Of a stretch of DNA of 64,000 nt, positions 5,134 through 43,406 are shown piece after piece. A program made the translations under genes and the position numbers. The first letter of the stretch is position 1. Every line of letters starts with the position of its first letter. The DNA is taken from contig NZ_FNCF01000006.1 in the NCBI RefSeq assembly GCF_900100695.1, forward strand, positions 1 to 64,000. The letters run 5' to 3'. Source of the stretch: Klenkia brasiliensis. Its GTDB lineage: Bacteria; Actinomycetota; Actinomycetes; Mycobacteriales; Geodermatophilaceae. Under the pieces are notes generated by a model. That model saw only the letters and a program-made list of their open reading frames with translations. It searched no databases and was not told where the DNA came from.

Positions 5134-6687
5134 TCAGATGGCCGCGGGGTAGCGGGAGTGCTCGGGGAAGTTGCCGTACAGCAGCTCGCCCTCGGGGCCC
5201 TGGGTGACCGCCTGCACCAGCAGCTCGCCGCCCACGAAGCAGCCCAGCCAGGAGGCGCCGCGGCCGCCGAAGGGCTCGGCCCGGTCGCCGCGGGAGCGGG
5301 GCTTGTTGATGCCGACCTTGAACGCCTGCACCTCGCGGGCCAGCCGGTGCGCCTTCTCCTCGTCGTCGCAGGCCAGCGAGGCGACCAGCGCGCCGTTGGA
5401 GGCGTTCATCTGGGCCAGCAGCTCGGCCTCGCTGTCGACCACGACGATGGTGTCGACCGGCCCGAACGGCTCGGAGTGCATGAGCGCCGAGGCGCCGCCG
5501 GGGGAGAGCAGGGCGGCGGGCGCGACGTAGGCGGAGGTGTCCTGGCCGGCGATGAACCGGCCGTCGGCCAGCGACCCGCGCCAGAGCGGCACGGCGCCGC
5601 GGTGCATGGCGTCCGACACCCGCTCGCGCAGCTCGGTGGCCTTGCCCGCGCTGATCACCGGCCCGAAGTCCAGCACCGGCAGCTCGTCGTCGTCGTGCTC
5701 CACGGCCAGCGGGTGACCGAAGCGCAGCGACTGCACCACGGGCAGGTAGGTGGCCAGGAACTGGTCGACGAGCTCGCGCTGCACGACGTAGCGCGGGTAG
5801 GCGGTGCAGCGCTGCTTGCCGTACTCGAAGCCCTTCTTCAGGTGCGCGGCCAGGCCGTCCCAGTCGGAGAACTCCCAGATGCCCCAGGCGTTGAGGCCCT
5901 CCTGCTCGAGCATGTGCCGCTTGCCGGTGTCCAGCAGCCCGGCGGCGACCTTGCCGCCGTTGGAGCGCCCGCCGACGAAGGCCAGCGCGCCGACCTCGGG
6001 GGAGCGGACCAGCACGCTGGACAGCTCCGCCCCACCACCCGACAGCAGCGTCACCGGCAGGCCCTCGCGGGCCATCAGCGCGTGCGCCAGGGTCAGGCAG
6101 GTCGCCCCGCCCTGGGAGGGGGTCTTGGCGACGACGGCGTTGCCGGCCAGGAGCTGCACCAGCTCGGCGTGCACCAGCACCGACATCGGGTAGTTCCAGC
6201 TGGCGATGTTGGAGACCGGCCCGTCCAGCGGCGTCCGGTCCCCGAGCATCCCGTCGATCTCCTCGACGTACCAGCGCACGCCGTCCAGGGCGCGGTCGAC
6301 GTCGGCGCAGGCCAGCCGCCACGGCTTGCCGATCTCCCAGGCCAGCAGCAGCGCCAGGTCGTCGCGGGCGTCGGCCATCGCCTCGACCGCCGCGCTCACC
6401 CGCGCCTTGCGCTCGGCGACCGGGGTGGTCGCCCACTCCCGGTGCGCGGCGGCCGCAGCCAGCACGGCGTGCTGCGCCTCCCCGGCGGACACCTTGGGCA
6501 GCCCGGTCAGCTTCGAGCCGTCGACGGGGGAGACGAGGGTCTCGGGGTCGCCGATCGGCCGCCAGGACCCGTCGACCAGGTTGTGCAGCCGATCGGTGCC
6601 GAAGGCCTCCGGTGCCCGGTCCGCGGCCCGGCCGAGGACGGCGGCCCACTCGGTGCCGGGCTTCAGGTGCAACGACGTCGCTGTCAT
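5134..6687 (-). CDS. Aldehyde dehydrogenase family protein with an unusual general-base motif
   Basis: 517 residues, NAD(P)-dependent aldehyde dehydrogenase fold. Visible: oxyanion-hole Asn165 in SWNYPMS, cofactor Lys188 in VVAKTPS, and nucleophile Cys294 in KQRCTAYPR. The motif that normally reads LELGGK is here LEQEGLNAWGIW (residues 260-271), so the general base could be Glu261 or Glu263 and the following loop is unlike ordinary members. Function is probably oxidation of an aldehyde to an acid (or acyl-CoA) in the cytoplasm; the substrate is unknown. A CAGGGT hexamer six bases before the ATG suggests a leaderless transcript. It is divergent from a PTS IIB-like gene and converges on xylB. 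Confidence 0.85.
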   Translation of the reverse strand: MTATSLHLKPGTEWAAVLGRAADRAPEAFGTDRLHNLVDGSWRPIGDPETLVSPVDGSKLTGLPKVSAGEAQHAVLAAAAAHREWATTPVAERKARVSAAVEAMADARDDLALLLAWEIGKPWRLACADVDRALDGVRWYVEEIDGMLGDRTPLDGPVSNIASWNYPMSVLVHAELVQLLAGNAVVAKTPSQGGATCLTLAHALMAREGLPVTLLSGGGAELSSVLVRSPEVGALAFVGGRSNGGKVAAGLLDTGKRHMLEQEGLNAWGIWEFSDWDGLAAHLKKGFEYGKQRCTAYPRYVVQRELVDQFLATYLPVVQSLRFGHPLAVEHDDDELPVLDFGPVISAGKATELRERVSDAMHRGAVPLWRGSLADGRFIAGQDTSAYVAPAALLSPGGASALMHSEPFGPVDTIVVVDSEAELLAQMNASNGALVASLACDDEEKAHRLAREVQAFKVGINKPRSRGDRAEPFGGRGASWLGCFVGGELLVQAVTQGPEGELLYGNFPEHSRYPAAI

Positions 6688-6722
6688 GTCGGCACCCTGC
6701 CAGAACGCTGCCCGCCGCGTGG

Positions 6723-6736
6723 GTGACCGCGATCAC
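6723..6736. promoter_or_regulatory. Candidate Crp/GlxR-type site
   Basis: GTGACCGCGATCAC has GTGA and TCAC half-sites separated by six bases, the layout of cyclic-AMP receptor protein family sites (actinobacterial GlxR/Crp consensus TGTGAnnnnnnTCACA). It lies between two divergent genes, the aldehyde dehydrogenase and the IIB-like protein. The outer T and A are absent, so this is moderate evidence. Confidence 0.4.
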
Positions 6737-6814
6737 GGTTGAGAAGAGCGTCACACCTGCCGACGACAGGGGAGAATGAGAGTTCATCCACCAGCGAGGA
6801 GCCTGAGTTCCACC

Positions 6815-7117
6815 ATGCCCACCATCGAGGGAACCGCCGTCCGCAAGCTCGTCATCGCCTGCGATGCCGGCATGGCCAGCAGCGTGCTGATGAGCGTCCA
6901 GCTGCGCAAGCACCTCGGTGACGTCGTGGTCGAGCACAGCCCGCTGGACGCGCTGCCCGAGGACGCCGACGTCGTCCTGACCCACGGCAAGCTGGCCGAC
7001 CGGGTCCGTGCCGCCGCCGGCGACCGCCCGGTCATCGCCTACACCGCCGTCGTCGGCGACCCCGCCGTGGCCGGCCTGGTCGCCGCGATCCGCGCCGGCG
7101 AGCCCATCTCCGGCTGA
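6815..7117 (+). CDS. Free-standing PTS mannitol-type IIB-like domain protein
   Basis: 100 residues from the ATG at 6815. The core KLVIACDAGMASS (Cys16) is the phosphocysteine loop of PTS IIB domains of the mannitol/lactose superfamily, in which the P-loop reads CDxGMGSS; here the second glycine is alanine. A valine-rich second strand (DADVVLTHGKLADR) follows, as in mannitol IIB. No IIA, IIC, HPr or enzyme I gene is visible nearby, so it is either an orphan phosphotransfer component or a regulatory relic. GAGGAG lies 13 bases before the start, longer than ideal; an ATG at 6776 in the same frame is an alternative start. Convergent with the LCP gene. Confidence 0.7.
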   Translation: MPTIEGTAVRKLVIACDAGMASSVLMSVQLRKHLGDVVVEHSPLDALPEDADVVLTHGKLADRVRAAAGDRPVIAYTAVVGDPAVAGLVAAIRAGEPISG

Positions 7118-7124
7118 CCGCTCG

Positions 7125-8963
7125 TCAGCCCCGCGACGGGGGTTCGCCGGCCTCCAGGGCCGCGCGCGCCGCGGCCGGGTCGTAGGCGCAGGCGTCGGTG
7201 ACGTCGGTGACCGCCCCGGCCACCGGCGCGGGGGTCGCCGACACCTCCGAGGTCGGGGCCGCGGACGTCGTCGGCGCGGCCGAGGTGGTCGGTGCCGGGA
7301 CGGGTGCGGTGCCCAGGGCCTGCTGCACCAGCGCGCGCATGCGGTCGTAGTCCGGGTAGGCCGGGTCGATCGCCGAGTTGTCGAACACGACGCTGCGGAT
7401 GTCGGCGTCCTTGACCAGGAAGGCCAGGTCGACGAAGTCGTCGAGGACCGACTGGGGGACGTCGGTGGAGACGATGTCCGACGTCGTGGCGGCCAGCTGC
7501 TGGTAGCGGGTCAGCAGGGTGACCGGGTCGGCCGCGTCGACGATCGCGTCGAGCACGCAGCGCTGGCGGTCCATCCGCAGGTAGTCGGTGAGGCCGAAGC
7601 GGCCGCGGGCGAAGTCCAGCGCCGTGGTGCCGTCCATCTCCTGGTCCGGGCCGGGGGCGATGTAGCGGTCGGGCAGGGTGCCGGTGGCCTGGTCGCCGTT
7701 CACGGGGACGTAGTAGTTGACGTTGACCGTGATGCCGCCGAGGGCGTCGACCAGCTGGCTGAACCCGTCCAGGTTGACCAGCACGTAGTAGTCGATGGGC
7801 AGGCCCAGGGCGGTGCCGACCCCCAGCTTGAGCCAGTCGGCACCCGGGTTGTCGCTGGGGGTGCCGAGCGCGTCGGGGTACAGCGCGGGTCCGTTGCGGT
7901 AGACCGCGTTGAGCAGGCCCTCGCTCTCGGAGTCGGCCTCGAACCCGTCGGGGAACAGCTGCGCGAGCTCCGAGCCGGGCGGGAACGGCAGGTTCTCCAG
8001 GTTGCGCGGCAGGCTGAACAGCGTCGTGTCGCCGGTGTCGGTGTCGATGCTGGCCACGATCACGGTGTCGGTGCGCACGCCGTCGCGGCCCGCGCCGCCG
8101 TCGCCCCCGAGCAGCAGGACGTTGACCCGCTCCTGGTCCCCGAACGGGTTGACCGGGTCGGCCGGCTCCTGCACGGTCGCGCTCTGCCCGTCGGCGAAGA
8201 CGGTGTCGACCAGCCCGCGCTGCGCGCCGGCCACCCGGACGGCGGTGACCGCGGGGACGGCGACCGCGGCGACCAGCAGCGCCACCAGCACGGCACCGGC
8301 GCCCTGCTGCAGGCGGGAGGTGCGGCGGGGGAGCAGCAGCCGGTACCCGGTGACCACCACCGCGATCCAGAGCACGGCCAGCACGCCCACCCCGACCATC
8401 ACGCCGAGCAGCACCTGGGGGTCGACCGCGGCCCGGACGGCGGTGCGCTGACCGGCGGTGGCCAGCCAGACCGCGCCGCCGAGCAGCAGGAGGAACACCG
8501 CCAGGACCACGGCACCGGTGCGGCGCCACCCGGCGGCGAGCAGGCCGGCGCCCGGCACGACGGCGCCGAGCACGGTCAGCGCAGCGGCGCGCCCGAAGCT
8601 GCGGGCGGGGCGGACGGACCGGTCCTGCTCCTCTGGCACGCGGTCGGTCTCGCCGTCGGGGTCGGGGTGGTACCCCGGGACGGAGGAGGCCACGGCCATC
8701 GGGGGCAGGCCGGCGGCGGCCCGGGCCTGCGCGGCGAGCTCGGGGTCGGTGCCGCCCTCGGCGCGGCGCCGGCCGGCGGTCGTCGGCCCCGGGACGGGCG
8801 GTGGCCGGTCGCCGGGGGACCGGTCACCGGGGGACTGCGCGCCGGGGGGCTGCGCGCCGGAGGGGTGGGTGCCGGGCACCGGCGGCCGTGCGGCGCGCAG
8901 GTCGCGGCGGGGGATGCGGGTGGTGCGGTCGACCGGGTCGGTCGGGTCGGTCGGGTCGGTCAC
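7125..8963 (-). CDS. LytR-CpsA-Psr (LCP) family cell-wall glycopolymer ligase
   Basis: About 612 residues from the GTG at 8963. A long proline/arginine-rich cytoplasmic tail is followed by about four hydrophobic helices (roughly residues 130-290) and then the extracytoplasmic LCP domain: VNVLLLGGDGG, DTVIVASIDTDTGDTTLFSLPRN, and the arginine-rich FARGRFGLTDYLRMDRQR that binds the polyprenyl pyrophosphate head. LCP enzymes transfer lipid-linked polymers such as teichoic acids or arabinogalactan to peptidoglycan. A C-terminal Thr/Ala/Pro-rich segment (PTTSAAPTTSAAPTSE) links to a short tail. The frame is open 33 codons further upstream, but family members start near this GTG. Confidence 0.88.
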   Translation of the reverse strand: MTDPTDPTDPVDRTTRIPRRDLRAARPPVPGTHPSGAQPPGAQSPGDRSPGDRPPPVPGPTTAGRRRAEGGTDPELAAQARAAAGLPPMAVASSVPGYHPDPDGETDRVPEEQDRSVRPARSFGRAAALTVLGAVVPGAGLLAAGWRRTGAVVLAVFLLLLGGAVWLATAGQRTAVRAAVDPQVLLGVMVGVGVLAVLWIAVVVTGYRLLLPRRTSRLQQGAGAVLVALLVAAVAVPAVTAVRVAGAQRGLVDTVFADGQSATVQEPADPVNPFGDQERVNVLLLGGDGGAGRDGVRTDTVIVASIDTDTGDTTLFSLPRNLENLPFPPGSELAQLFPDGFEADSESEGLLNAVYRNGPALYPDALGTPSDNPGADWLKLGVGTALGLPIDYYVLVNLDGFSQLVDALGGITVNVNYYVPVNGDQATGTLPDRYIAPGPDQEMDGTTALDFARGRFGLTDYLRMDRQRCVLDAIVDAADPVTLLTRYQQLAATTSDIVSTDVPQSVLDDFVDLAFLVKDADIRSVVFDNSAIDPAYPDYDRMRALVQQALGTAPVPAPTTSAAPTTSAAPTSEVSATPAPVAGAVTDVTDACAYDPAAARAALEAGEPPSRG

Positions 8964-9078
8964 GCCCTCACCCGCACGCCTCTCCCCCGCTCGTCGGCCG
9001 TCCGCATCCGCCCATGATCGCACCGGTGGGACGGGCGGGTCGTCCTGGGCGAGCAGGGTCACCCGTCGGCGGGACCCC

Positions 9079-10275
9079 TCACCAGCGCACCGGCAGCGCG
9101 TCCAGACCGAACACGATCGACCGCTGACGGAACGTCAGGGCGGCGGGGTCGGCGTCCACCGCCAGCCCGGGGAAGCGCCGCAGCAGCGCCGGGAACGCGA
9201 TCTGCAGCTCCAGCCGGGCCAGCGGGGCACCCAGGCAGTGGTGGATGCCGTGCCCGAAGGCGACGTGCTGGGTGGGGGAGCGGCGCAGGTCGAGCCGGTC
9301 GGGGTCGGCGAGCAGCCGTGGGTCGCGGTCGGCGCCGGCCAGCGAGCACAGCACGAGGTCCCCGGCGGCCACCTGCTGCCCGGCGAGCTCGACGTCGGCA
9401 CGGGCGAACCGGGGGAAGGCCACCTGCACGACGCTGAGGTGGCGCAGCAGCTCCTCGACGACGCCGGGCACCGCAGCCGGCTCGTCCCGCACCAGGGCGG
9501 CGTGCGCCGGGTCGCGCAGCAGGAGCAGGGTGCCCAGCGCCAGCATGCTGGCCGTCGTCTCGTGCCCGCCGACCAGCAGGCCGTCGACCAGGCCGGCCAG
9601 CTCGACGTCGTCCACGTCGTGGCCGTGGGTGCGCACCAGCTCGCCGAGCAGGCCCGGGCCGGGCTGCGCGCGCTCGCGGGCGACCAGGTCGCGCAGGTGG
9701 GCCAGGCCGTCGGCCGCGGAGTCCAGCGGGGCCAGGACCGAGGCCAGCAGGTCGAACCGGCCGGTCGCGATGGAGGCGAAGGCCTCCTGGTCGGCGCGGG
9801 ACACCCCGAGCAGCTCGCCGATCACCATCGCCGGCACCGGGGTGGCGAACTCGGCGACCAGGTCGGCGCCGGGCCCGGCCGCGGCGAGGGCGTCCAGCCG
9901 CTCGTGCACCACCCGCTCCACCGCCGGGGCCAGGGCGGCCAGCCGGCGGGCGGTGAACGCCGGGGCCAGCATGCGGCGCAGCCGGGTGTGGTCGGGCGGG
10001 TCGCGGAAGCCCAGGCCGCCGGGGTCGGCCAGCCCGAGGTCGCCGTCGTCGTCCCCGCCGGCCGCCGCGAGGTGCGCGAAGTCGTTGCTGAAGGCGGCGG
10101 TGTCGGCGAGCACGGCCCGCACGTCGGCGTGCCGCGTGACCAGCCAGACCGGGTTGCCGAACAGGTCCAGCCGGGTGACGGGCCCCTCCTCGCGCCGCTG
10201 CGCCAGCCAGCCGACGGGGTCGACGTCGTCCCGGGTGAGCGGGGCGAAGACGTCGTCGATCGCGAGCTCGGTCAC
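9079..10275 (-). CDS. Cytochrome P450
   Basis: 398 residues, soluble bacterial class I size. The haem-ligand motif FGHGIHHCLGAPLAR places the axial cysteine at residue 347; the I-helix oxygen-activation motif GGHETTASM and the K-helix ExxR (EELLR) are present. The protein would need ferredoxin and reductase partners; none is encoded beside it. The CYP family cannot be assigned by eye; the overall style (HLAAAGG insert, HxxDHTRLRRML before helix C) resembles macrolide/fatty-acid-type actinobacterial hydroxylases. It lies seven bases downstream of a GNAT gene on the same strand and is probably co-transcribed with it. Confidence 0.93.
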   Translation of the reverse strand: MTELAIDDVFAPLTRDDVDPVGWLAQRREEGPVTRLDLFGNPVWLVTRHADVRAVLADTAAFSNDFAHLAAAGGDDDGDLGLADPGGLGFRDPPDHTRLRRMLAPAFTARRLAALAPAVERVVHERLDALAAAGPGADLVAEFATPVPAMVIGELLGVSRADQEAFASIATGRFDLLASVLAPLDSAADGLAHLRDLVARERAQPGPGLLGELVRTHGHDVDDVELAGLVDGLLVGGHETTASMLALGTLLLLRDPAHAALVRDEPAAVPGVVEELLRHLSVVQVAFPRFARADVELAGQQVAAGDLVLCSLAGADRDPRLLADPDRLDLRRSPTQHVAFGHGIHHCLGAPLARLELQIAFPALLRRFPGLAVDADPAALTFRQRSIVFGLDALPVRW

Positions 10276-10281
10276 GGGGGC

Positions 10282-10845
10282 TCAGTCGTCGGCGGGCCGC
10301 CCGGGGTTCCCGAGCAGGGCCGTGGTGTCCAGCTCGAAGTGCACCGTCTGCAGCAGCTCGCCGGGCACCCGCTCGTCGAGGACCTCCACCACGGGCAGCG
10401 ACCGCCAGAACGCCTCGGCCCCGGGGACGGCGGTGTCGGTGTGCAGGCACAGCGTGCGGTAGCCGCCCTCGGTGACCGCCCACCGCGCCGCCGCGGTGAC
10501 CAGGGCGCGGGCCACACCGCGGCGGCGGTGCTCGGCGAGCACCCACACCCGCACCAGCTGGGCGACCGGCCGGTCGGCGTAGCGCTCGACCAGTGCCTGC
10601 GGGCTGCGCGGGCCGCCGGTGCGCACCGCGGTGGTGCCCATCAGCACGCCGTCGTCGTCGCGGGCGAGCAGGAGCACCTGACCGGGGGTGCGCAGGTAGG
10701 CCGTGGCCGGGTCGGCCACGTCGGCGTGCCACTCGGGGCGGAACCCGTAGCCGAGGTCCTCCTCCAGGACCCGCAGCATGAGCGCCCGCGCGGGGGCGAC
10801 GTCGTCGGGTCCGGCCGGCTGCACGTGCACCCTTGTTGCAAGCAT
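10282..10845 (-). CDS. GNAT-family N-acetyltransferase
   Basis: 187 residues from the ATG at 10845 (MLATRVHVQPAGPDDVAPAR). The acetyl-CoA binding motif is VRVWVLAEHRRRGVARALVTAAARWA (written in two parts: VRVWVLAEHRRRG, then VARALVTAA), with the usual RxxGxA pyrophosphate loop. Substrate unknown; the C-terminal CLHTDTAVPGAEAFWRSL is the typical strand-helix end of the fold. The frame extends 30 codons upstream, but that stretch overlaps the divergent desaturase promoter. It precedes the P450 gene in a likely two-gene unit. Confidence 0.82.
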   Translation of the reverse strand: MLATRVHVQPAGPDDVAPARALMLRVLEEDLGYGFRPEWHADVADPATAYLRTPGQVLLLARDDDGVLMGTTAVRTGGPRSPQALVERYADRPVAQLVRVWVLAEHRRRGVARALVTAAARWAVTEGGYRTLCLHTDTAVPGAEAFWRSLPVVEVLDERVPGELLQTVHFELDTTALLGNPGRPADD

Positions 10846-13267: not shown

Positions 13268-14020
13268 ATGGCGCAGTTCGAAGGCAAGGTCGCGATCGTC
13301 ACCGGGGGTGGCAGCGGCATCGGTGAGGCGGTGGTCAAGGAGCTGGCCGCCGAGGGCGCCCGGGTCGTGGTGACCGACGTGCAGCTGGCGGCCGCCCAGC
13401 GCGTCGTCGACGAGGTCGAGCGGGCCGGCGGCACGGCGGTGGCGGTCGAGGCCGACTCGTCGGTCGCCGGGGACAACGAGCGCGCCGTGCAGGTGGCGGT
13501 GGACACCTTCGGCGGCCTGCACCTGGCGGTGAACAACGCCGGCATCGGGGCGCCGCCGCAGCCGATCGGCGAGTACGACGTCGCCGCGTGGGACCGCGTG
13601 CGGAGCGTCGACCTGGACGGCGTCTTCTACGCCCTGCGGTACGAGATCCCCGCGATGCTCGCCTCCGGCGGCGGCGCCATCGTCAACATGGGCTCCGTGC
13701 TCGGCTCGGTCGGCATCGCGCACAACGCCGCCTACGTCGCGTCCAAGCACGCGCTGGTGGGCCTCACCAAGGTCGCCGCGCTGGAGTACACCGCCCAGGG
13801 CGTCCGCACGAACGCCGTCGGCCCCGGCTTCATCGACACGCCCCTGGTGCGCGCCTCGCTGTCGCCCGAGGCCCTGGCCGCCCTGGAGGCCGAGCACGCC
13901 GCCCAGCGGCTGGGCACCGACGCCGAGGTGTCGGCGCTCGTGCTGTTCCTGCTCAGCGACCGGGCCTCCTTCATCAGCGGCAGCTACCACCTCGTCGACG
14001 GCGGCTACAGCGCGCACTGA
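13268..14020 (+). CDS. Short-chain dehydrogenase/reductase (SDR), classical type
   Basis: 250 residues. Rossmann motif TGGGSGIG near residue 14, NNAG strand, and catalytic Ser-Tyr-Lys in GSVLGS and YVASK. The C-terminal SGSYHLVDGGYSAH is the usual closing motif. Cofactor preference reads as NAD-type because an Asp (VVTDVQ) ends beta-2. The ATG at 13268 is preferred over the one at 13232 because GAGGG (13256-13260) lies seven bases upstream and the Rossmann strand then starts at residue 6. Substrate unknown; it stands alone upstream of the SPL-like gene. Confidence 0.9.
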   Translation: MAQFEGKVAIVTGGGSGIGEAVVKELAAEGARVVVTDVQLAAAQRVVDEVERAGGTAVAVEADSSVAGDNERAVQVAVDTFGGLHLAVNNAGIGAPPQPIGEYDVAAWDRVRSVDLDGVFYALRYEIPAMLASGGGAIVNMGSVLGSVGIAHNAAYVASKHALVGLTKVAALEYTAQGVRTNAVGPGFIDTPLVRASLSPEALAALEAEHAAQRLGTDAEVSALVLFLLSDRASFISGSYHLVDGGYSAH

Positions 14021-14057
14021 CACCGGCACCGGCGGGGAAGCGGACCCCCGGGTCCCG

Positions 14058-15152
14058 GTGTTCTCCCCGGTGATGACCACTGCAGCCCCCACCCGCGTGT
14101 GGACCCCGTCCCGCGTGCTGGTGACCGCGTCCGCCGCCGCCCTCCCGTACGGGCAGGCCGTCCTCGACCGCGTGCAGGCCGCCGGCGTCCCCGACGTCCG
14201 CGTGCTGCCCGGCGACCGGCTGCCCAACCTGCGGGGGGACGGCGACCGGGCCGCCTTCATGGCCGCCAAGGACACCCTCGCCGTGGTGGTGGGCGCGCCC
14301 TCGAAACGGAAGCTGCAGCCGATCCCGCCGTCCGCGGACTGGCGGTTCGACCTGGCCGAGGGCTGCCCCGCGCACTGCCAGTACTGCTACCTCGCCGGGT
14401 CGCTGTCCGGGCCGCCGGTCACCCGGGTGTTCGCCGACCTGCCCGACGTCCTCACCTCCCTCGACGGCTACGTCGGGCGCGGCGCGGTCACCTCGGGCAC
14501 CGCGGAGCGCGGCCACGAGGGGACGACGTTCGAGGCGTCCTGCTACACCGACCCGCTGGCCATCGAGCACCTGACCGGCGGGCTGGCCACCGCCATCACG
14601 CACTTCGGGACGCACGCCTGGCCCGGGCCGGTGCAGCTGCGGGCGACCACCAAGTTCGACGACGTCGAGCCGCTGCTGGACCTGCCGCACCGCGGGCGCA
14701 CCCGGCTGCGCTTCTCGGTCAACGCCGCCACCGTCGGCCGGCGGTTCGAGGGCGCGACCTCGCCGGTGCCCGCCCGGGTGGCCGCGCTGGGCCGGGTGGC
14801 CGAGGCCGGCTACCCGGTCGGGCTGACGATCGCGCCGATCATGCCGGTGGAGGACTGGCGCACCGAGTACGGCGAGCTGCTGGACTCCGTGGCCGCCGTG
14901 CTGCCCGCCGGGGCCGACCTGACGGTCGAGTGCATCACGCACCGGTTCACGCCGGGCAGCAAGGCCACGCTGCTGGACTGGTACCCGCGCACCAAGCTGG
15001 AGATGGACGAGGACCTGCGGGCGCAGAAGCGCGGCAAGTTCGGCGCGGTCAAGCACGTCTACCCGAAGCCCGTGATGGCGGAGCTGCGCGGCTGGTTCAC
15101 CGACGCGGTCGACCAGAGGCTGCCGGGCGCTCGCTTCCTCTACTGGACATGA
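14058..15152 (+). CDS. Spore photoproduct lyase-like radical SAM protein
   Basis: 364 residues from GTG 14058; an ATG at 14073 would give 359. The radical SAM cluster motif is CPAHCQYC (Cys103, Cys107, Cys110), and the region FEASCYTDPLAIEHLTG aligns with the part of Bacillus spore photoproduct lyase that holds the hydrogen-donating cysteine, here Cys162. SplB-type enzymes reverse the 5-thyminyl-5,6-dihydrothymine lesion using S-adenosylmethionine. The organism shows no other sporulation gene in the window, so the lesion or substrate is open. It is followed 12 bases later by an AAA+ ATPase gene and near YaaA and exonuclease III, a stress-repair neighbourhood. Confidence 0.85.
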   Translation: MFSPVMTTAAPTRVWTPSRVLVTASAAALPYGQAVLDRVQAAGVPDVRVLPGDRLPNLRGDGDRAAFMAAKDTLAVVVGAPSKRKLQPIPPSADWRFDLAEGCPAHCQYCYLAGSLSGPPVTRVFADLPDVLTSLDGYVGRGAVTSGTAERGHEGTTFEASCYTDPLAIEHLTGGLATAITHFGTHAWPGPVQLRATTKFDDVEPLLDLPHRGRTRLRFSVNAATVGRRFEGATSPVPARVAALGRVAEAGYPVGLTIAPIMPVEDWRTEYGELLDSVAAVLPAGADLTVECITHRFTPGSKATLLDWYPRTKLEMDEDLRAQKRGKFGAVKHVYPKPVMAELRGWFTDAVDQRLPGARFLYWT

Positions 15153-15160
15153 CCGTTCAG

Positions 15161-15166
15161 TAATGT
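15161..15166 (+). promoter_or_regulatory. Leaderless -10 element of the AAA+ ATPase gene
   Basis: TAATGT lies seven bases before the GTG at 15174, which favours that GTG as the start codon over the one at 15165. Confidence 0.45.
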
Positions 15167-15173
15167 GCGCCGG

Positions 15174-16544
15174 GTGGAGCCCGCCGAGTTCGCCCGCCAG
15201 TTCTCCCGGTTCATGAGCTGGGCCCACGAGGCCGGCGACGGGCAGGCCGACGGCCCGGTCACCAGCGCCCTGCGCGAGCACCTGGGTGCCGACGCCGCCG
15301 ACCTGCCGGTGGTGGCCCGGGAGCTGGCCCCCTTCGAGCAGGTCAACCTGCAGATCGCGCTGGAGCGGTGGGTGGCCGACCGCGACGTGCAGGTGGTCGG
15401 CTACTCGGTGCCGCCGCACCACATGCACCCCGAGCTGGCCCAGCTGCTGTCCGGCGAGGGCCTGCCCCGGCTGCGCCGCACCGCCCCGCCGCTGGCCGAC
15501 CTGCCCTCGGGCCCGGGCCGGACGACGGCGGTCTGGCGGACGGCGCTGCTGCTGGTCCGCGACGACCGCGGCGCCTCCGTGCTGCTGGTCCGTGGCCCCG
15601 AGCGGCACCAGCAGCCCACGCTGACCGTCGAGGTGGCCGGTCTCCCCGGCGCGCAGGCGCAGGAGGTCCTCGCCGAGCTGGACGCCCTCCGCGCCCGGCA
15701 CAACGTCTACCGCGGCCAGGTGCTCGAGCTGCGGCAGAGCAACAGCGGCGTCGACGTCCTGTTCCCGGTGCTGCCGCGCACCGAGCGGGCCGACGTCGTC
15801 CTGCCCGAGGAGGTGCTCGCCCGGGTCGAGCGGCACAGCATCGGCATCGCCGAGCAGCGGGACGCGCTGCGCGCGGCCGGCCAGCACCTCAAGCGCGGCC
15901 TGCTGCTGTTCGGCCCGCCCGGCACCGGCAAGACGCACACCACCCGGTACGTGGTGCAGCACGTCCCCGGCGCCACCGTGCTGCTGCTCTCGGGCCGGTC
16001 GCTGCACCTGGTGGGCGAGGTGACCCAGTTGGCCCGCGACCTGGAGCCCGCCGTCGTCGTCCTGGAGGACGTCGACCTGGTGGCCGAGGACCGCGGCCAC
16101 TCCCACGGGCCGCAGCCGGTGCTGTTCGAGCTGCTGGACGCCATGGACGGCGCGGCAAGCGACGCCGACCTGCTGTTCGTGCTGACCACCAACCGGGCCG
16201 AGGCGCTGGAGCACGCGCTGGCCGCCCGGCCGGGCCGGGTGGACGTCGCGGTGGAGATCGGCCTGCCCGACGCCGACGCCCGGCGCCGGCTGCTGGAGGT
16301 CTACGGGCGGGGGAGCGGTCTGGCCGTCGGTCCGGACGACGTCGAGCACGTCGTCGGCGCCACCGCGGGCGTCACGGCGTCGTTCATCAAGGAGCTGGTG
16401 CGCCGGGCGGTGCTGGAGTCGCTGCTGGCCGGGGCCACCGACGGCACGGTGACGGGGGAGCACCTGCGCCGCGCGCTGGACGACCTGCTCGACAGCACGC
16501 AGGAGGTCACCCGCGCCCTGCTGGGGGTGCCGGGGCAGCCGTAA
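15174..16544 (+). CDS. AAA+ family ATPase with N-terminal accessory domain
   Basis: 456 residues from the GTG at 15174 (three codons longer from 15165). The C-terminal half is a single AAA+ module: Walker A GPPGTGKTHTTR, Walker B VVVLEDVDLVAED, sensor-1 FVLTTNRAE, arginine-finger region LAARPGRVD, then a helical lid. The N-terminal 200 residues are a domain I do not recognise, with a beta-rich part (TLTVEVAGLPGAQAQEVLAELDAL). The layout resembles Cdc48/BCS1-like single-ring ATPases acting as unfoldases or remodelers. It follows the SPL-like gene by about 20 bases and precedes yaaA. Confidence 0.85.
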   Translation: MEPAEFARQFSRFMSWAHEAGDGQADGPVTSALREHLGADAADLPVVARELAPFEQVNLQIALERWVADRDVQVVGYSVPPHHMHPELAQLLSGEGLPRLRRTAPPLADLPSGPGRTTAVWRTALLLVRDDRGASVLLVRGPERHQQPTLTVEVAGLPGAQAQEVLAELDALRARHNVYRGQVLELRQSNSGVDVLFPVLPRTERADVVLPEEVLARVERHSIGIAEQRDALRAAGQHLKRGLLLFGPPGTGKTHTTRYVVQHVPGATVLLLSGRSLHLVGEVTQLARDLEPAVVVLEDVDLVAEDRGHSHGPQPVLFELLDAMDGAASDADLLFVLTTNRAEALEHALAARPGRVDVAVEIGLPDADARRRLLEVYGRGSGLAVGPDDVEHVVGATAGVTASFIKELVRRAVLESLLAGATDGTVTGEHLRRALDDLLDSTQEVTRALLGVPGQP

Positions 16545-38157: not shown

Positions 38158-38913
38158 GTGGCCGTGCCGACGTGGCTGGAGGCCGGGCTGTGGGGGCTGC
38201 TGGGCGGCGGGGCGCTGGTCCTGGGTGCGCTGGTGGCCTGGTTCCTCCGCGTGCCGCAGGTCGTGGTCGCCTCGGTGATGGCCTTCGGGTCCGGGGTGCT
38301 CATCTCGGCGGTCGCCTTCGACCTGATGGCCGAGGCCGCGGAGACCGGTGGGCTGGTGCCCACCGCGCTGGGCTTCCTCGGCGGGGCGGTCACCTACCTG
38401 GGTGCCAACGCGCTGCTGGCCCGCCGCGGGGCGCGGCACCGCAAGCGGTCGGGGGACCAGCAGCCCTCGGAGGACCAGCAGCAGGGCAGCGGCGCGGCGA
38501 TCGCGGTCGGCGCGCTGCTGGACGGCGTCCCGGAGTCCGTCGTCCTGGGGGTGGGGCTGCTCGGCGGCGGGGCGGTGAGCCTGCCGGTGCTGGCGGCGGT
38601 GTTCATCTCCAACGTGCCCGAGGGCCTGTCCAGCGCGGCCGGGATGAAGCGCAGCGGCCGCTCCGCCGGCTACGTCTTCGGCGTGTGGGGCGGCATCGCG
38701 GTGCTCTCGGGCCTGTCCGCGCTGGTCGGCTACGTCGCCCTGGGCAGCGCGCCGCCCGAGGCCATCGCCGTCATCACCGCGGTGGCGGCCGGGGCGATCC
38801 TGACGATGATCGCCGACACGATGATCCCCGAGGCCTTCGAGCGCACCCGGACCTGGACCGGCCTGATCACCGCGCTGGGCTTCCTGCTCGCCTTCGCCAT
38901 CGAGCTCGCCTGA
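38158..38913 (+). CDS. ZIP-family metal transporter
   Basis: About 251 residues, roughly eight hydrophobic helices. Helix 4 carries the family motif LLDGVPESVVLG and helix 5 ISNVPEGLSSA; both contain the paired metal ligands (Asp/Glu/Pro/Glu) of ZIP proteins. A short cytoplasmic loop rich in Arg/Lys/Gln (RHRKRSGDQQPSEDQQ) replaces the usual His-rich loop. It moves zinc or another divalent cation into the cytoplasm. Start is uncertain between GTG 38158 and GTG 38164. A parS-like site follows five bases past its stop, then a shared terminator. Confidence 0.85.
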   Translation: MAVPTWLEAGLWGLLGGGALVLGALVAWFLRVPQVVVASVMAFGSGVLISAVAFDLMAEAAETGGLVPTALGFLGGAVTYLGANALLARRGARHRKRSGDQQPSEDQQQGSGAAIAVGALLDGVPESVVLGVGLLGGGAVSLPVLAAVFISNVPEGLSSAAGMKRSGRSAGYVFGVWGGIAVLSGLSALVGYVALGSAPPEAIAVITAVAAGAILTMIADTMIPEAFERTRTWTGLITALGFLLAFAIELA

Positions 38914-38985: not shown

Positions 38986-40323
38986 TCAGCGCTGCGGGCC
39001 GATGCCCTGCGCGTTGAGCCCCTCGATGATCCGGCTGGTCTCCTCGAACCCGATCACCAGGATCGCGTCGGGGTTGAACTCGACCATCTGGGAGACCTCG
39101 CTGTCGAAGTTCGCCGCCGTCGGGTCGTAGACCAGCGAACGGATCGAGTCCTCCGACAACCCGTCGGCGACCAGGTCGGCGGCGGTGTTGTCGGCCAGCC
39201 CGGTGCCGTAGGGGTCGTTGAGCGCCAGGATGCCGACGGTGTTGTTGCCGTCGCCGCCGATCAGGTCGGCCAGCGCCCGGGCCTGCAGGGTGTCCGGGGG
39301 CACGGTGCGGAAGAACAGGCCCTGGTCGGGGTAGTCGGTCAGCCGGTCGGAGGTGCTGGCCGGGCTGATCATCGCCACGCCGGCGCCGGTGATCGCGTCG
39401 ATCACGGTCAGCGTCACGCCCGAGGACGACGCCCCGATGATCACGTTCGCCCCCGACTGCAGCAGCCGGTCGGCGGTCTGGGTCGCGGTGTCGGTGCTCG
39501 CGTCGCCGGAGTCCCCGGTGTCGAGCTGCACCGGGTTGCCCAGCACCCCGCCCGCGGCGTTGACGTCGCCCACGGCCAGGTTCAGCGCCGCGATCTGCTG
39601 CGGGCCCTGGTAGGACAGGCTGCCGGTCAGCGGGGTGAGGCTGCCGATCACCAGCGGTGCCCCGGTCGTGCCCGGTGCGGCCGGCGCCGGGCCCTCGTCG
39701 GTCGCGGCGTCCGCCAGGTCACCGGCCTGCACGAACTGCCGGGCGTCCAGGTCGATCTGGTCGTCCTCGGTGAAGCTCTCGATGGCGAAGCTCGCCACCG
39801 ACGGCTCCCCGGGCTCGGTGAACGCCAGCGGGCCGTTGACGCCGTCGTAGTCGGGGTTCCCGCCGGCCTGGATGATCGCGGTGCAGGACGCGTAGTCGGT
39901 GCAGGTCTCCCCGCCGAAGGTCACCCCGTTGACGTAGGGCGCCCAGACCGTGGCCTGGTTGCTCCCGGCCAGCTGCGCGGCGAGCGAGGCGATGACCACG
40001 GCGTCGTAGGTCTCGGCCGCGGTGTTGAAGTTGGTCAGCGACGGGTCGAGGGCCAGCAGCCGGTCGCGGAAGTCCTGCCCGACGTCGGTGAGCAGCACGG
40101 TGCCGCGCATGCCGGCCAGCGCGCCGGGGGAGGATGCGAAGTCCTCGCCCAGGCCGTTGTTCATGTTGCCGTCGGCGCCGTAGACGTTGACCTGCTTCGC
40201 GCCGTCGGAGGCGGCCGCGCTGCCTGCCCCGGCGTCGCCGTCGTCCGGGCCGCCGCCGCAGGCGCCCAGCGCCAGCAGGGTCGCGGCGGCGAGCGCACCG
40301 GCGCGGAGGTGGGTGGTGCGCAT
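38986..40323 (-). CDS. Circularly permuted branched-chain-amino-acid-type substrate-binding lipoprotein
   Basis: 445 residues. A lipoprotein signal with lipobox LALGAC (Cys22) is followed by a linker to residue 42. Residues 43-201 (starting KQVNVYGADGNMNNG, passing AETYDAVVIASLAAQ and GNPDYDGVNGPLAFTEPGEPSVASF, ending RQFVQAG) correspond to the C-terminal part of ordinary LivJ/Peripla_BP_6 proteins. A linker (DLADAATDEGPAPAAPGTTGA) then leads to residues 222-445 (APLVIGSLTPLTGSLSYQG ... RIIEGLNAQGIGPQR), which is the N-terminal part, and the protein ends at the usual mid-protein hinge. The order of the halves is therefore reversed. It would still form a two-lobed pocket for amino acids or organic acids. 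No ABC permease or ATPase lies nearby. GAAGGAG precedes the ATG by five bases. Confidence 0.85.
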   Translation of the reverse strand: MRTTHLRAGALAAATLLALGACGGGPDDGDAGAGSAAASDGAKQVNVYGADGNMNNGLGEDFASSPGALAGMRGTVLLTDVGQDFRDRLLALDPSLTNFNTAAETYDAVVIASLAAQLAGSNQATVWAPYVNGVTFGGETCTDYASCTAIIQAGGNPDYDGVNGPLAFTEPGEPSVASFAIESFTEDDQIDLDARQFVQAGDLADAATDEGPAPAAPGTTGAPLVIGSLTPLTGSLSYQGPQQIAALNLAVGDVNAAGGVLGNPVQLDTGDSGDASTDTATQTADRLLQSGANVIIGASSSGVTLTVIDAITGAGVAMISPASTSDRLTDYPDQGLFFRTVPPDTLQARALADLIGGDGNNTVGILALNDPYGTGLADNTAADLVADGLSEDSIRSLVYDPTAANFDSEVSQMVEFNPDAILVIGFEETSRIIEGLNAQGIGPQR

Positions 40324-40363: not shown

Positions 40364-41074
40364 TCAGCGCATGGCCGAGCCGCCGGCGATGACCACGGTC
40401 TCGCCGGTGACGTAGCCCGGTTCCAGCAGCCGCTGGACCCAGACGGCGATCTCGTCGGGGTCGGCGACCCGGCCCAGCGGGATGCCGGCGGCGGCCTCGG
40501 CCATCCGGCCGGTGGCGGCGTTGCCGGGGGTGTCGACCCAGCCCGGCGCGACGGCGTTCACCACCACCTGGTCGGGCGCGAGCTCGATGGCCAACGACTT
40601 CGTCAGCGACAGCACCGCTGCCTTGGAGGCGCTGTAGAGCAGCTGGCCGGGGGAGACGGCGAAGGCGTCGACGGAGGCGAAGTTGACCACCGCGCCACCG
40701 CCGGCCGCCCGCAGGTGCGGGACCGCGGCCGCGGTGACCACCAGCGTGCCGAGCACGTTGACGTCGAACACCGCGCGGTAGGTCTCGTCGGTGAAGTCCT
40801 CGAGCCGGGTGGGCGGGTAGATGCCGGCGCAGTTGACCACGCCGGTCAGCCGCTGCCCGGCGACGAGGCGGTCCACCGCGGCGGTGACGCCGGCGCGGTC
40901 GGTGACGTCGACGGGCACCGGCACCAGCTGCTCGCCGAGCTCGTCGGCCAGCGCGGCGAGGGGGTCGGCGGCCCGGTCCAGGGCGAGCACCCGCCAGCCG
41001 GCGGCGACCAGCCGCTGCACCAGCGCCCGGCCCATGCCGCTGGCGGCGCCGGTGACCAGCACGGTGTCGCTCAC
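40364..41074 (-). CDS. Short-chain dehydrogenase/reductase
   Basis: 236 residues. Rossmann motif VLVTGAASGMGRAL, NCAG, catalytic Ser in FASVDAF, Tyr/Lys in LLYSASKAAVLSL, closing VIAGGSAMR. An Asp after beta-2 (LALDRA) suggests NAD. Its GTG at 41074 overlaps the stop of the flavin monooxygenase gene by four bases, so the two enzymes are made together and probably act in sequence, for example alcohol from monooxygenation then oxidation, or ester/lactone chemistry. It lies 41 bases before the binding-protein gene, possibly in one operon. Confidence 0.9.
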   Translation of the reverse strand: MSDTVLVTGAASGMGRALVQRLVAAGWRVLALDRAADPLAALADELGEQLVPVPVDVTDRAGVTAAVDRLVAGQRLTGVVNCAGIYPPTRLEDFTDETYRAVFDVNVLGTLVVTAAAVPHLRAAGGGAVVNFASVDAFAVSPGQLLYSASKAAVLSLTKSLAIELAPDQVVVNAVAPGWVDTPGNAATGRMAEAAAGIPLGRVADPDEIAVWVQRLLEPGYVTGETVVIAGGSAMR

Positions 41075-42363
41075 CGGGCCACCTCCTGCGCCGCGCGGGC
41101 GGGGGCGGTCGGCACGACGGCGTCCAGCGCGGCGTGCGAGCGGGCCATCCACTGCGTCCACACCGGGCGCAGCACGTCGACCCGGTCGGTCGGGCCGCCG
41201 GCGGGCAGCAGCAGCTCGGCCAGCGGCCGGTCGGTGCGGCCCTCGAGGCCGAGCAGCCGGACGGCGAGGGCCGACTGCGCGCTGAACACCGGGAACTGCG
41301 CGCCCCGCGGGCTGGCCAGCCCGACGGTGTAGAGCCGCGAGGTCCCGACCGGGACGACCATGCCGCCGACCCGCAGCGGCGCCCCGGCCGACCAGGTCAG
41401 CTGGTCGGGTGCCAGGAACGGCAGGCTGACCCGGAAGCCGGTGGCCCACAGCACGGTGTCGAAGTCGGCGCTGGTGCCGTCGGCGAAGGAGACCGTGCGG
41501 CCCTCCGTGCCCACCACGCCGGTGCGGGCGGTGATCCGGCCGTGCTGCAGCCAGTACAGGAGCAGGTCGTTGACCACCGGCAGCTGCTCGTTGAGGTTGC
41601 GGGTCACCGGCGGCTGCAGGCCCGGGTAGTCCGCGTGCGTGCCCACCGACACCCGGACCAGGGCCCGCTGCACCCGCTCGGCGGCCCACGGCGGCAGCGT
41701 GGCCAGGAAGGGCAGCTGGTTGCGACCGCGGCCGAAGAAGGTCTTGGGCTGGAACACCTGGCCGTGCCGCATGGCGATGGAGACGTCCAGCCGGGCGTTG
41801 GCGGCGTCGACGGCGAGGTCGCAGCCGCTGTTCCCGGCACCCACCACGAGCACGCGGTGACCCTCGACGTCGGCCACCGACCGGTACTGCGAGGAGTGCA
41901 GCGACCGGCCGGTGAAGCCCTCGGCGACCGCCGGCAGCTTCGGGTCCCAGTGGTGGCCGTTGGCGACCACCACGGCGTCGAAGCGCTCGGTCGTGCCGCC
42001 GGCGGTGACGTCCCAGCCGGAGACGCCGTCGTCCGGGCTGGTCACGGCGGTGACCTCGGTGCCGAACCGGACGTGGTCGAGCAGGCCGTGGTCGGCGGCG
42101 AAGGCGTCGAGGTAGGCCACCACCTGCTCCCGGCTGGGGAACAGCGGGTAGGTGGCGGGCATCGGTACGCCGTCGAAGCAGGACACGTCCCGCGGCGTGA
42201 TCAGGTGCAGCGCCTCGTAGTCGGTGTGCCAGTGCCCGCCGGCCCGGTCGCCGCGCTCGTACGCGACCACGTCGTGCCCGGCGTCCCGGAACACCCGGAC
42301 CGCCTCCAGACCGGCCGCCCCGGCGCCGATCACGCAGACGCGCTGTGCGGTGCTGCTCGCCAC
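41071..42363 (-). CDS. Flavin-containing monooxygenase (FMO/Baeyer-Villiger-like)
   Basis: 430 residues. FAD-binding GxGxxG in VIGAGAAGLEAVR, the FMO fingerprint FxGxxxHxxxY in FTGRSLHSSQY, and the NADPH-binding VLVVGAGNSGCDLA are all visible, as is the C-terminal ATGFRVSLPFL. It oxygenates a soft nucleophile or ketone using NADPH and O2. GTG at 42363 with GGAGG six bases upstream is the chosen start. Translationally coupled to the SDR; the LysR gene on the same strand lies 101 bases upstream. Confidence 0.92.
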   Translation of the reverse strand: MASSTAQRVCVIGAGAAGLEAVRVFRDAGHDVVAYERGDRAGGHWHTDYEALHLITPRDVSCFDGVPMPATYPLFPSREQVVAYLDAFAADHGLLDHVRFGTEVTAVTSPDDGVSGWDVTAGGTTERFDAVVVANGHHWDPKLPAVAEGFTGRSLHSSQYRSVADVEGHRVLVVGAGNSGCDLAVDAANARLDVSIAMRHGQVFQPKTFFGRGRNQLPFLATLPPWAAERVQRALVRVSVGTHADYPGLQPPVTRNLNEQLPVVNDLLLYWLQHGRITARTGVVGTEGRTVSFADGTSADFDTVLWATGFRVSLPFLAPDQLTWSAGAPLRVGGMVVPVGTSRLYTVGLASPRGAQFPVFSAQSALAVRLLGLEGRTDRPLAELLLPAGGPTDRVDVLRPVWTQWMARSHAALDAVVPTAPARAAQEVAR

Positions 42364-42464: not shown

Positions 42465-43406
42465 TCAGCCTCTGGCCGGGCCGCCGTCCGCCGCCTGCTG
42501 CAGGGCCCGGATGTGGGTGTGCGCCAGGTCCATGAACACCCGGGTGGCCGGGCTGAGCGTGCCGCCGGCCCGGGTGATGAAGGCGAACCGCTCGACGACG
42601 GGCGGGTCCAGCGGCGCCCAGTGCAGCCGGCCGGGGTAGCCCGACCAGCGGGTGACCAGGTAGCTGACCAGCGAGTCGCCGAGCCCGTGGGCGGCCAGCT
42701 CGACCGCGGCGGTCTGGAACTCGACCTCGATCTGCGGCTGCAGGACCAGCCCGGCCGCGGCCGCCCGCTCGGTGAGCACCCGGCGCAGCGGGTCCTCGGC
42801 GCCCCACCGGGCCTCGGACAGGATCAGCGGCGCGGCGGCCAGCTGCTGCACGGTCACCGGTGCCCGCGCCCGGTCGCCGTCGGTGCTGACGTAGACCACG
42901 GAGTCCACCAGCACCGGCGGGCCGACGTCGAGCCCGCGCTCGTCGATCGGCAGCTGCACCAGGCCGGCCTCGAGCTCCCCGCGCCGGACCTGGGCGGCGA
43001 CCTCCGAGCTGTTCAGCCCGACCACCCGGGTGACCACCCCGGGGTAGCGGGAGCGGAAGTCGCCGATCAGCGCGGTCAGCAGGTAGAGGTGCGCGCTGGA
43101 GAAGGTGCCGAAGCTGACCGTGCCGCCGGCCAGCTCGCGCACGCCCCGGGCGCTGTCGGCCAGCGCCTGCGCGTCGGCCAGCGTGCGCCGGGCCCCGGGC
43201 AGCAGCGCCCGGCCGGCCTCGGTGAGCTGCAGCCGCCGGTTGGTGCGCACGAAGAGGGTGACGCCGAGGGTGTGCTCGAGCCGGCGCACCTGCTCGGAGA
43301 GGCTGGGCTGGGCGACGTGGGTGGCCTCGGCGGCGGCGACGAAGGAGCCGTGCTCGACCGCGGCGACGAAGTACGCCAGCTGCTGCAGGGTCGGCAGCCG
43401 GGCCAC
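42465..43406 (-). CDS. LysR-family transcriptional regulator
   Basis: 313 residues: N-terminal winged helix (LQQLAYFVAAVEHGSFVAAAEATHVAQPSLSEQVRRLEHTLG) and a two-lobed co-inducer domain (VSFGTFSSAHLYLL onward). The neighbour on the same strand is the monooxygenase/SDR unit, its likely target, although LysR genes are more often divergent. Inverted half-sites GAAC-GGCCA-GTTC occur in the 101-bp gap downstream of its stop. TAGCGT lies eight bases before its GTG. Confidence 0.92.
   Translation of the reverse strand: MARLPTLQQLAYFVAAVEHGSFVAAAEATHVAQPSLSEQVRRLEHTLGVTLFVRTNRRLQLTEAGRALLPGARRTLADAQALADSARGVRELAGGTVSFGTFSSAHLYLLTALIGDFRSRYPGVVTRVVGLNSSEVAAQVRRGELEAGLVQLPIDERGLDVGPPVLVDSVVYVSTDGDRARAPVTVQQLAAAPLILSEARWGAEDPLRRVLTERAAAAGLVLQPQIEVEFQTAAVELAAHGLGDSLVSYLVTRWSGYPGRLHWAPLDPPVVERFAFITRAGGTLSPATRVFMDLAHTHIRALQQAADGGPARG

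Follow-up and report, generated by a model that had tools for sequence, protein, structure and literature searches.

The window, by which we mean the whole 64-kb stretch of DNA that was analysed, carries a gene for a substrate-binding protein (SBP) in which the two parts of the chain stand in inverted order (Table 1). The gene lies in a same-strand run behind genes for a LysR-type regulator, a flavin-containing monooxygenase (FMO) and a short-chain dehydrogenase (SDR). Its reading frame begins with ATG and, as the preliminary description of this DNA had reported, is not interrupted over its 445 residues.

Table 1. Features of the SBP gene, its parts and its neighbours, in window coordinates
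Feature	Position	Strand	Basis
Circularly permuted LivJ-type substrate-binding lipoprotein, 445 aa	38986..40323	-	ORF, Pfam, BLASTP, AlphaFold
Signal peptide and lipobox, residues 1-22 (Cys22)	40258..40323	-	Sequence; lipobox-type motif
Segment B, residues 43-201, formerly C-terminal and here in front; carries YGxDGN loop (D51)	39721..40197	-	BLASTP, Pfam
Linker, residues 202-221, from old C-terminus to old N-terminus	39661..39720	-	Alignment, linker comparison
Segment A, residues 222-445, formerly N-terminal and here at the end	38989..39660	-	Pfam, BLASTP, Foldseek/VIA-align
SDR gene	40364..41074	-	PF00106, E 7e-50; stop 40 bases before SBP start
FMO gene	41071..42363	-	PF00743, E 7e-44; overlaps SDR start
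Gene for a LysR-type regulator, which opens the same-strand run	42465..43406	-	PF00126/PF03466; same neighbours in L073 and L140
Gene for a ZIP-like membrane protein, next to the SBP gene	38158-38913	+	PF02535, below its cutoff

A circularly permuted LivJ-type lipoprotein

The N-terminus carries LALGAC ending at Cys22, which we take to be a lipobox-type signal, and the protein meets the criterion for a bacterial lipoprotein, i.e. a type II signal peptide with a lipobox cysteine. The Cys22 column is invariant in an alignment of 29 permuted sequences (A1). More widely, a lipobox-like pattern is present in 99 of the 100 distinct sequences with the breakpoint types I and II described below, and in 7/10 of those with type III.

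The inverted order is evident from profile searches. PF13458 positions 2-217 of 343 match residues 224-443 of the window protein in a single stretch (E 6e-32; 112.1 bits against a cutoff of 31.7), and segment A searched alone returns the same profile range (E 6e-33). Segment B searched alone gives a weak match to positions 268-350 of PF01094 (E 0.11). For its equivalent in L002, a paralogue from the same genome, the match extends over PF01094 positions 226-350 (E 8e-7; 28.8 bits against a curated cutoff of 25.4), and in that paralogue this segment precedes the one that matches profile positions 2-217. Since the front segment of the paralogue matches late profile positions and segment A early ones, the profile order is inverted. 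In ordinary-order relatives PF01094 matches as one ordered stretch, from 6-7 to 342-350 in 5/5 tested. The profile match of the window protein and its permuted relatives ends at 202-225, and a whole-profile match in ordinary order is not met. The NCBIfam LivJ model NF011933 likewise covers residues 226-400 only, far below its cutoff. The inverted order explains why profile-based annotation detects only half of these proteins.

BLASTP against L032, a relative of ordinary order, gives two pieces in swapped order: residues 195-445 of the window protein align with L032 14-272 (52% identity, E 4e-75) and residues 41-203 with L032 269-427 (37% identity, E 2e-32). These prove the permutation without the need of any fold. 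The window protein is shown to be a LivJ-type (Peripla_BP_6/ANF_receptor) substrate-binding lipoprotein that has undergone circular permutation in nature. The preliminary description had placed residues 43-201 ahead of residues 222-445, and this order is borne out by the Pfam profile order and by BLASTP to L032; the halves, aligned separately, do not follow the profile in ordinary order, and related genomes contain relatives of both orders. The protein resembles the LivJ/LivK-type branched-chain amino-acid (BCAA)-binding proteins (PF13458, PF01094; 4n0q, 3ipc, 4gnr, 1z15) in sequence, in the predicted fold of segment A, in the lipobox or signal, in the aligned cleft residues and, for most permuted copies, in the livFGMH neighbours. 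It differs from them by the inverted order of its two parts.

Relatives, breakpoints and the liv locus

The ordinary-order gene of L032 (5247-6533, genome G057), which encodes A and then B, stands in a locus of gltB, gltD, pyk, a pdtaR-like regulator and the SBP gene, then livF, livG, livM and livH on the opposite strand. The permuted paralogue L034, from the same genome as the window, has the same pyk-pdtaR-livFGMH arrangement with two extra genes; the window protein is 68% identical to its own-genome permuted paralogue. Among loci of at least 9 kb, a few of them included twice, at least three of the four liv genes lie near the SBP gene in 77/90 permuted and 32/36 ordinary loci. The 13 permuted loci that fall short comprise the window counterparts in Klenkia taihuensis and K. 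terrae (2), loci from family f16 (6) and short pieces cut by contig ends (5). Because permuted SBPs share this liv locus with the ordinary-order relatives of other families, we infer that the permutation took place in situ, in an orthologous gene.

Two observations on these loci may be added. The f16 permuted genes whose neighbours were examined (L033 and L183-L187) are all, 6/6, without liv genes within 13-14 kb, unlike most other permuted copies. In L177, two ordinary-order SBP genes stand in tandem, at 6232-7575(+) and 8613-9917(+), before one livFGMH set, an arrangement from which a permutant could arise.

The permuted form is widespread in the family of the window's genome. A genome scan returned 80 loci, 77 of them with Geodermatophilaceae names (Klenkia, Modestobacter, Blastococcus, Geodermatophilus, Trujillonella, Goekera and unnamed members); the other three belong to a Bacillus marked as unverified, an 'Actinomycetes bacterium' and Desertimonas flava (Acidimicrobiia). 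The nearest named relative of the window protein is from Klenkia taihuensis (97%). Within the order, a profile of the permuted form matches 181/397 genomes at E 1e-25, and in at least 135 of these the protein is permuted over its full length (67 in family f1, 67 in f16 and one in f13). The remaining 46 matches are partial or paired, as given by ordinary-order proteins. Family f1 is that of the window, Geodermatophilaceae by its named members, and among the genomes listed 67 of its 75 sampled members have the permuted form and eight have no match. The 135 and the 67/75 were counted by hand from the search rows, and the latter assumes that own-family genomes come first among those without a match, as appears to be so.

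Beyond the order, at E 1e-60, permuted forms were found in at least 11/394 genomes of the class (7 outside the order, in f39, f49 and f41), 8/396 of the phylum (6 outside the class, in f68, f81 and f122) and 7/247 of the class of genome G931 (one from f164). These counts and those for the order are lower bounds, with at most four candidates scored per genome, or seven in the class of G931. In all, permuted forms occur under nine family labels besides f1, Acidimicrobiia included. The eight own-family genomes without a match at 1e-25 (G003, G033, G025, G207, G229, G354, G369 and G396) are probable losses or cases where the protein was replaced.

There are two neighbouring breakpoints. Types I and II have a common cut, directly after the helix ending in GIGPQ, and the chain restarts at the strand VxVYGxDGN; as they share this breakpoint, the two types were separated by family and sequence before any tree was built. 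Type III (Desertimonas, f68, f81, f122 and f164) keeps the YGxDGN segment as a C-terminal tail of 21-23 residues, and its chain begins about 20 residues later than in types I and II, near GMKGTTP. The Desertimonas protein, as modelled with AlphaFold (pLDDT 73, pTM 0.76, weak in its final 13 residues), carries the corresponding strand C-terminally. This type III protein, encoded at L152 3958-5385(+), seems to be without a lipobox cysteine after its signal and is perhaps secreted or otherwise anchored.

Route and number of origins

The linkers offer a view of how the permutation arose. They span 21-31 residues between profile matches. Their starts resemble old C-terminal tails, IAGD for example being comparable to IAGG or IVVGD. 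The linkers of types II and III also close with what looks like the end of an old spacer, GD ahead of GVLTIG. Linkers made of an old tail and the end of an old spacer fit a head-to-tail duplication followed by fusion and loss of the outer parts, and thus agree with the preliminary description, which had likened the protein to a tandem duplication minus its outer halves. We infer as the likely course that an SBP gene was duplicated in tandem in place and the copies fused in frame, and that the N-terminal part of the first copy was then lost together with the signal and C-terminal part of the second. The window gene would likely be a later paralogue that moved, in Klenkia, behind the LysR-FMO-SDR genes.

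The two parts may instead have once been separate genes that were rejoined in the other order. Such a fission and fusion route remains possible: segments A and B are cleanly separable, and 172 distinct sequences (110 permuted and 62 ordinary) included no fused A-B-A-B intermediate, which counts against the duplication route. We consider it unlikely, since the linkers have the old tail and old spacer that duplication predicts, and the tandem ordinary-order pair of L177 exists in the same type of locus.

The number of events was addressed with a tree of 96 sequences brought into a common order (61 ordinary, 20 type I, 5 type II and 10 type III), from which near-duplicates, most own-family sequences and repeats had been left out by hand. 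It requires six changes of order, five of them forced by well-supported branches. AU tests reject a single clade of all 35 permuted rows (p 2.2e-5), a single clade of the 25 rows with the first breakpoint (p=1.3e-5), type II as a clade (p=0.0077) and type III as a clade (p=0.0014); type I as a clade is not rejected (p=0.31). A single origin of all permuted forms is rejected by these tests, and several separate origins within this LivJ clade are likely. The simplest reading, which is provisional, has five: type I, f41, f39 with f49, the Acidimicrobiia group, and f68. Against this number, the forced changes fall to four in a tree of segment A alone and to two for segment B alone, rows such as L201 and L167 are long or of odd composition, and denser sampling could merge groups.

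Might the rows be chimeras of halves with different histories? We rejected this on the evidence of trees built from single segments, which likewise need several changes of order although they are poorly resolved: eight changes, four of them forced, for segment A, and six, only two forced, for segment B. Family f68 stands near L204 in both. The f41 protein of L072 groups with its f41 relatives by segment A and, weakly, with L177 by segment B.

We find it improbable that all permuted forms go back to a single old event, with the ordinary order regained several times and the breakpoint drifting later. In favour of this reading, the first breakpoint is common to several permuted groups and type I could form one clade. 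Against it, the clades of all permuted, of first-breakpoint, of type II and of type III sequences are each rejected, and every reversion would take a second permutation. Furthermore, the relatives in the PDB and the Pfam profiles have the ordinary order, and type III carries its segment of 21-23 residues at the opposite end of the chain.

Fold, role and comparison with known systems

An AlphaFold model of the window protein (pLDDT 85.9, pTM 0.85, low in residues 1-40 only) was built from an alignment that comprised permuted proteins only. Foldseek and VIA-align match it to LivJ-type structures, the best being 4n0q_B (Z 16.8, rmsd 2.8 over 218 residues), in rows that cover residues 220-445 only. 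By alignment, the cut corresponds to about residue 218 of LivJ, between Y202 and E226; in the model it lies between helix 429-438 and strand 46-50. From alignments, we take Y202, E226, S79 and T102 of LivJ to correspond to F426, D51, S301 and T324 of the window protein; at none of these four columns do the 29 permuted sequences of A1 vary.

A simulation study, in the part of it that was available, has the ligand bound by Y202 and E226 from one domain and by S79 and T102 from the other (PMC13103812). With Y202 and E226 in the same domain, a cut between them falls inside one lobe. The inter-lobe hinge, where the preliminary description had located the new ends, is therefore ruled out by the LivJ mapping, the model and the domain assignment available from that study. 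Nor are residues 43-201 the C-terminal lobe, as had been supposed; they are the part after about LivJ 218, which in ordinary proteins spans both lobes.

We infer that the chain adopts the two-lobe clamp typical of such proteins, in which the linker of about 20 residues would bridge the old ends across the hinge side. The lipid anchor would now lead into the lobe of the YGxDGN loop and not into that of the old N-terminus. An amino-acid-like ligand may be bound via the usual residues S301, T324, F426 and D51; binding of branched-chain or other amino acids is an inference from cleft residues that are conserved by mapping only, in the absence of ligand or transport data.

The window copy is an orphan paralogue that follows LysR-FMO-SDR genes. 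The same three genes stand next to the SBP gene in K. taihuensis and K. terrae, and FMO-SDR do so in G005, where the available piece ends. The 64-kb window contains no liv gene; the own-genome paralogue L034 has livFGMH nearby. By a simple NG86 estimate, dN/dS is 0.11, 0.27 and 0.37 against the orthologues of K. taihuensis, K. terrae and G005, respectively, and reaches a high 0.71 against the liv-locus copy of the same genome, which indicates a gene that has been kept but has diverged. A weaker inference is that each copy in a liv locus supplies the LivHMGF encoded beside it. The orphan might deliver its ligand in trans to the LivHMGF of the other locus, or act as a sensor for the FMO/SDR pathway; this too is a weaker inference, made without transport data.

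The copy could also have ceased to be a transport SBP and be decaying or non-binding. The lack of liv genes over 64 kb and the strong divergence from the liv-locus copy would suit such a paralogue. The low ratios in all three Klenkia orthologue pairs, the conserved cleft residues and the conserved neighbours speak against decay, to which we give little credence. An assembly or annotation artefact, which the window's place at a contig start might suggest and which the preliminary description had named as a refutation of its own proposal, can be excluded for all practical purposes by the uninterrupted frame, the second permuted copy in the genome and the full-length homologues with the same order in many separately assembled genomes, on contigs of more than 1 Mb.

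Taken as a whole, our preferred explanation is a LivJ-type permutant that arose by duplication, folds as a clamp, has the inferred ligand and partners, and belongs to a set of about five permutations at two neighbouring breakpoints. We give it a probability of roughly 0.85.

Searches of the open-licence literature yielded no permuted protein of the LivJ type, in line with the preliminary description, which knew of no described natural case in the LivJ/LivK family. Among type I binding proteins at large, a permuted sugar binder, TpMglB-2 (Tp0684) of Treponema pallidum, has been published. According to the portion of that report available (PMC4990184), TpMglB-2 is a crystallised, lipid-anchored, circularly permuted type I/cluster B binding protein, termed 'Type Ic / Cluster Bc', that bound D-glucose in vitro and closed on it. 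The same portion mentions a fourth crossover near the hinge and relatives in other treponemes and in Gram-positive bacteria, and the speculation that tethering promotes the altered topology is already raised there. Like TpMglB-2, the window protein is a type I binding protein that is circularly permuted in nature and bears a lipid-anchor signal. As far as can be judged from that portion, there are differences: TpMglB-2 is an MglB-type sugar binder and the window protein is of the LivJ type; TpMglB-2 has both new ends in the N lobe, with strands 1-3 at the C-terminus, an arrangement that the window protein does not meet. Mapped by sequence, the cut of the window protein lies in the lobe of the YGxDGN loop, the domain opposite S79/T102. 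The LivJ-type case also has ordinary-order orthologues in the same locus and several suggested origins.

Permutation by duplication is also known from saposin/swaposin and DNA methyltransferases, as reviewed in PMC3320104. The kind of rearrangement and the proposed route are the same, to the extent that the review was accessible. Unlike those cases as presented there, the LivJ-type proteins have permuted and unpermuted forms in the same gene neighbourhood, and two breakpoints in one clade. Where natural permutants have close relatives of ordinary order in synteny, how permutation arises and what it costs can be studied cleanly. One locus seems to offer several independent events with two breakpoints, so that natural pairs allow a comparison of folding, ligand affinity and anchor position.

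A bolder proposal, which we hold tentatively and with more doubt than belief, is that in Actinomycetota the liv-locus SBP underwent some five independent permutations, all of them inside one stretch of 20 residues. The reason would be that a lipid anchor shifted out of the N lobe into its partner lobe brings a benefit, or is tolerated without cost, where the fused extracytoplasmic domain of LivH may hold the SBP. That this domain could serve as a dock for the binding protein is no more than an idea. LivH in these loci has an N-terminal extension. A profile of this extension, built from 14 seeds taken from the very loci searched, is present in 77/77 permuted and 26/29 ordinary-order loci in which LivH was located. 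The extension of L034 LivH, 13796-15328(-), matches CarboxypepD_reg (prealbumin-like) above the cutoff, and L032 LivH, 9401-10726(-), has a match to it just below the cutoff.
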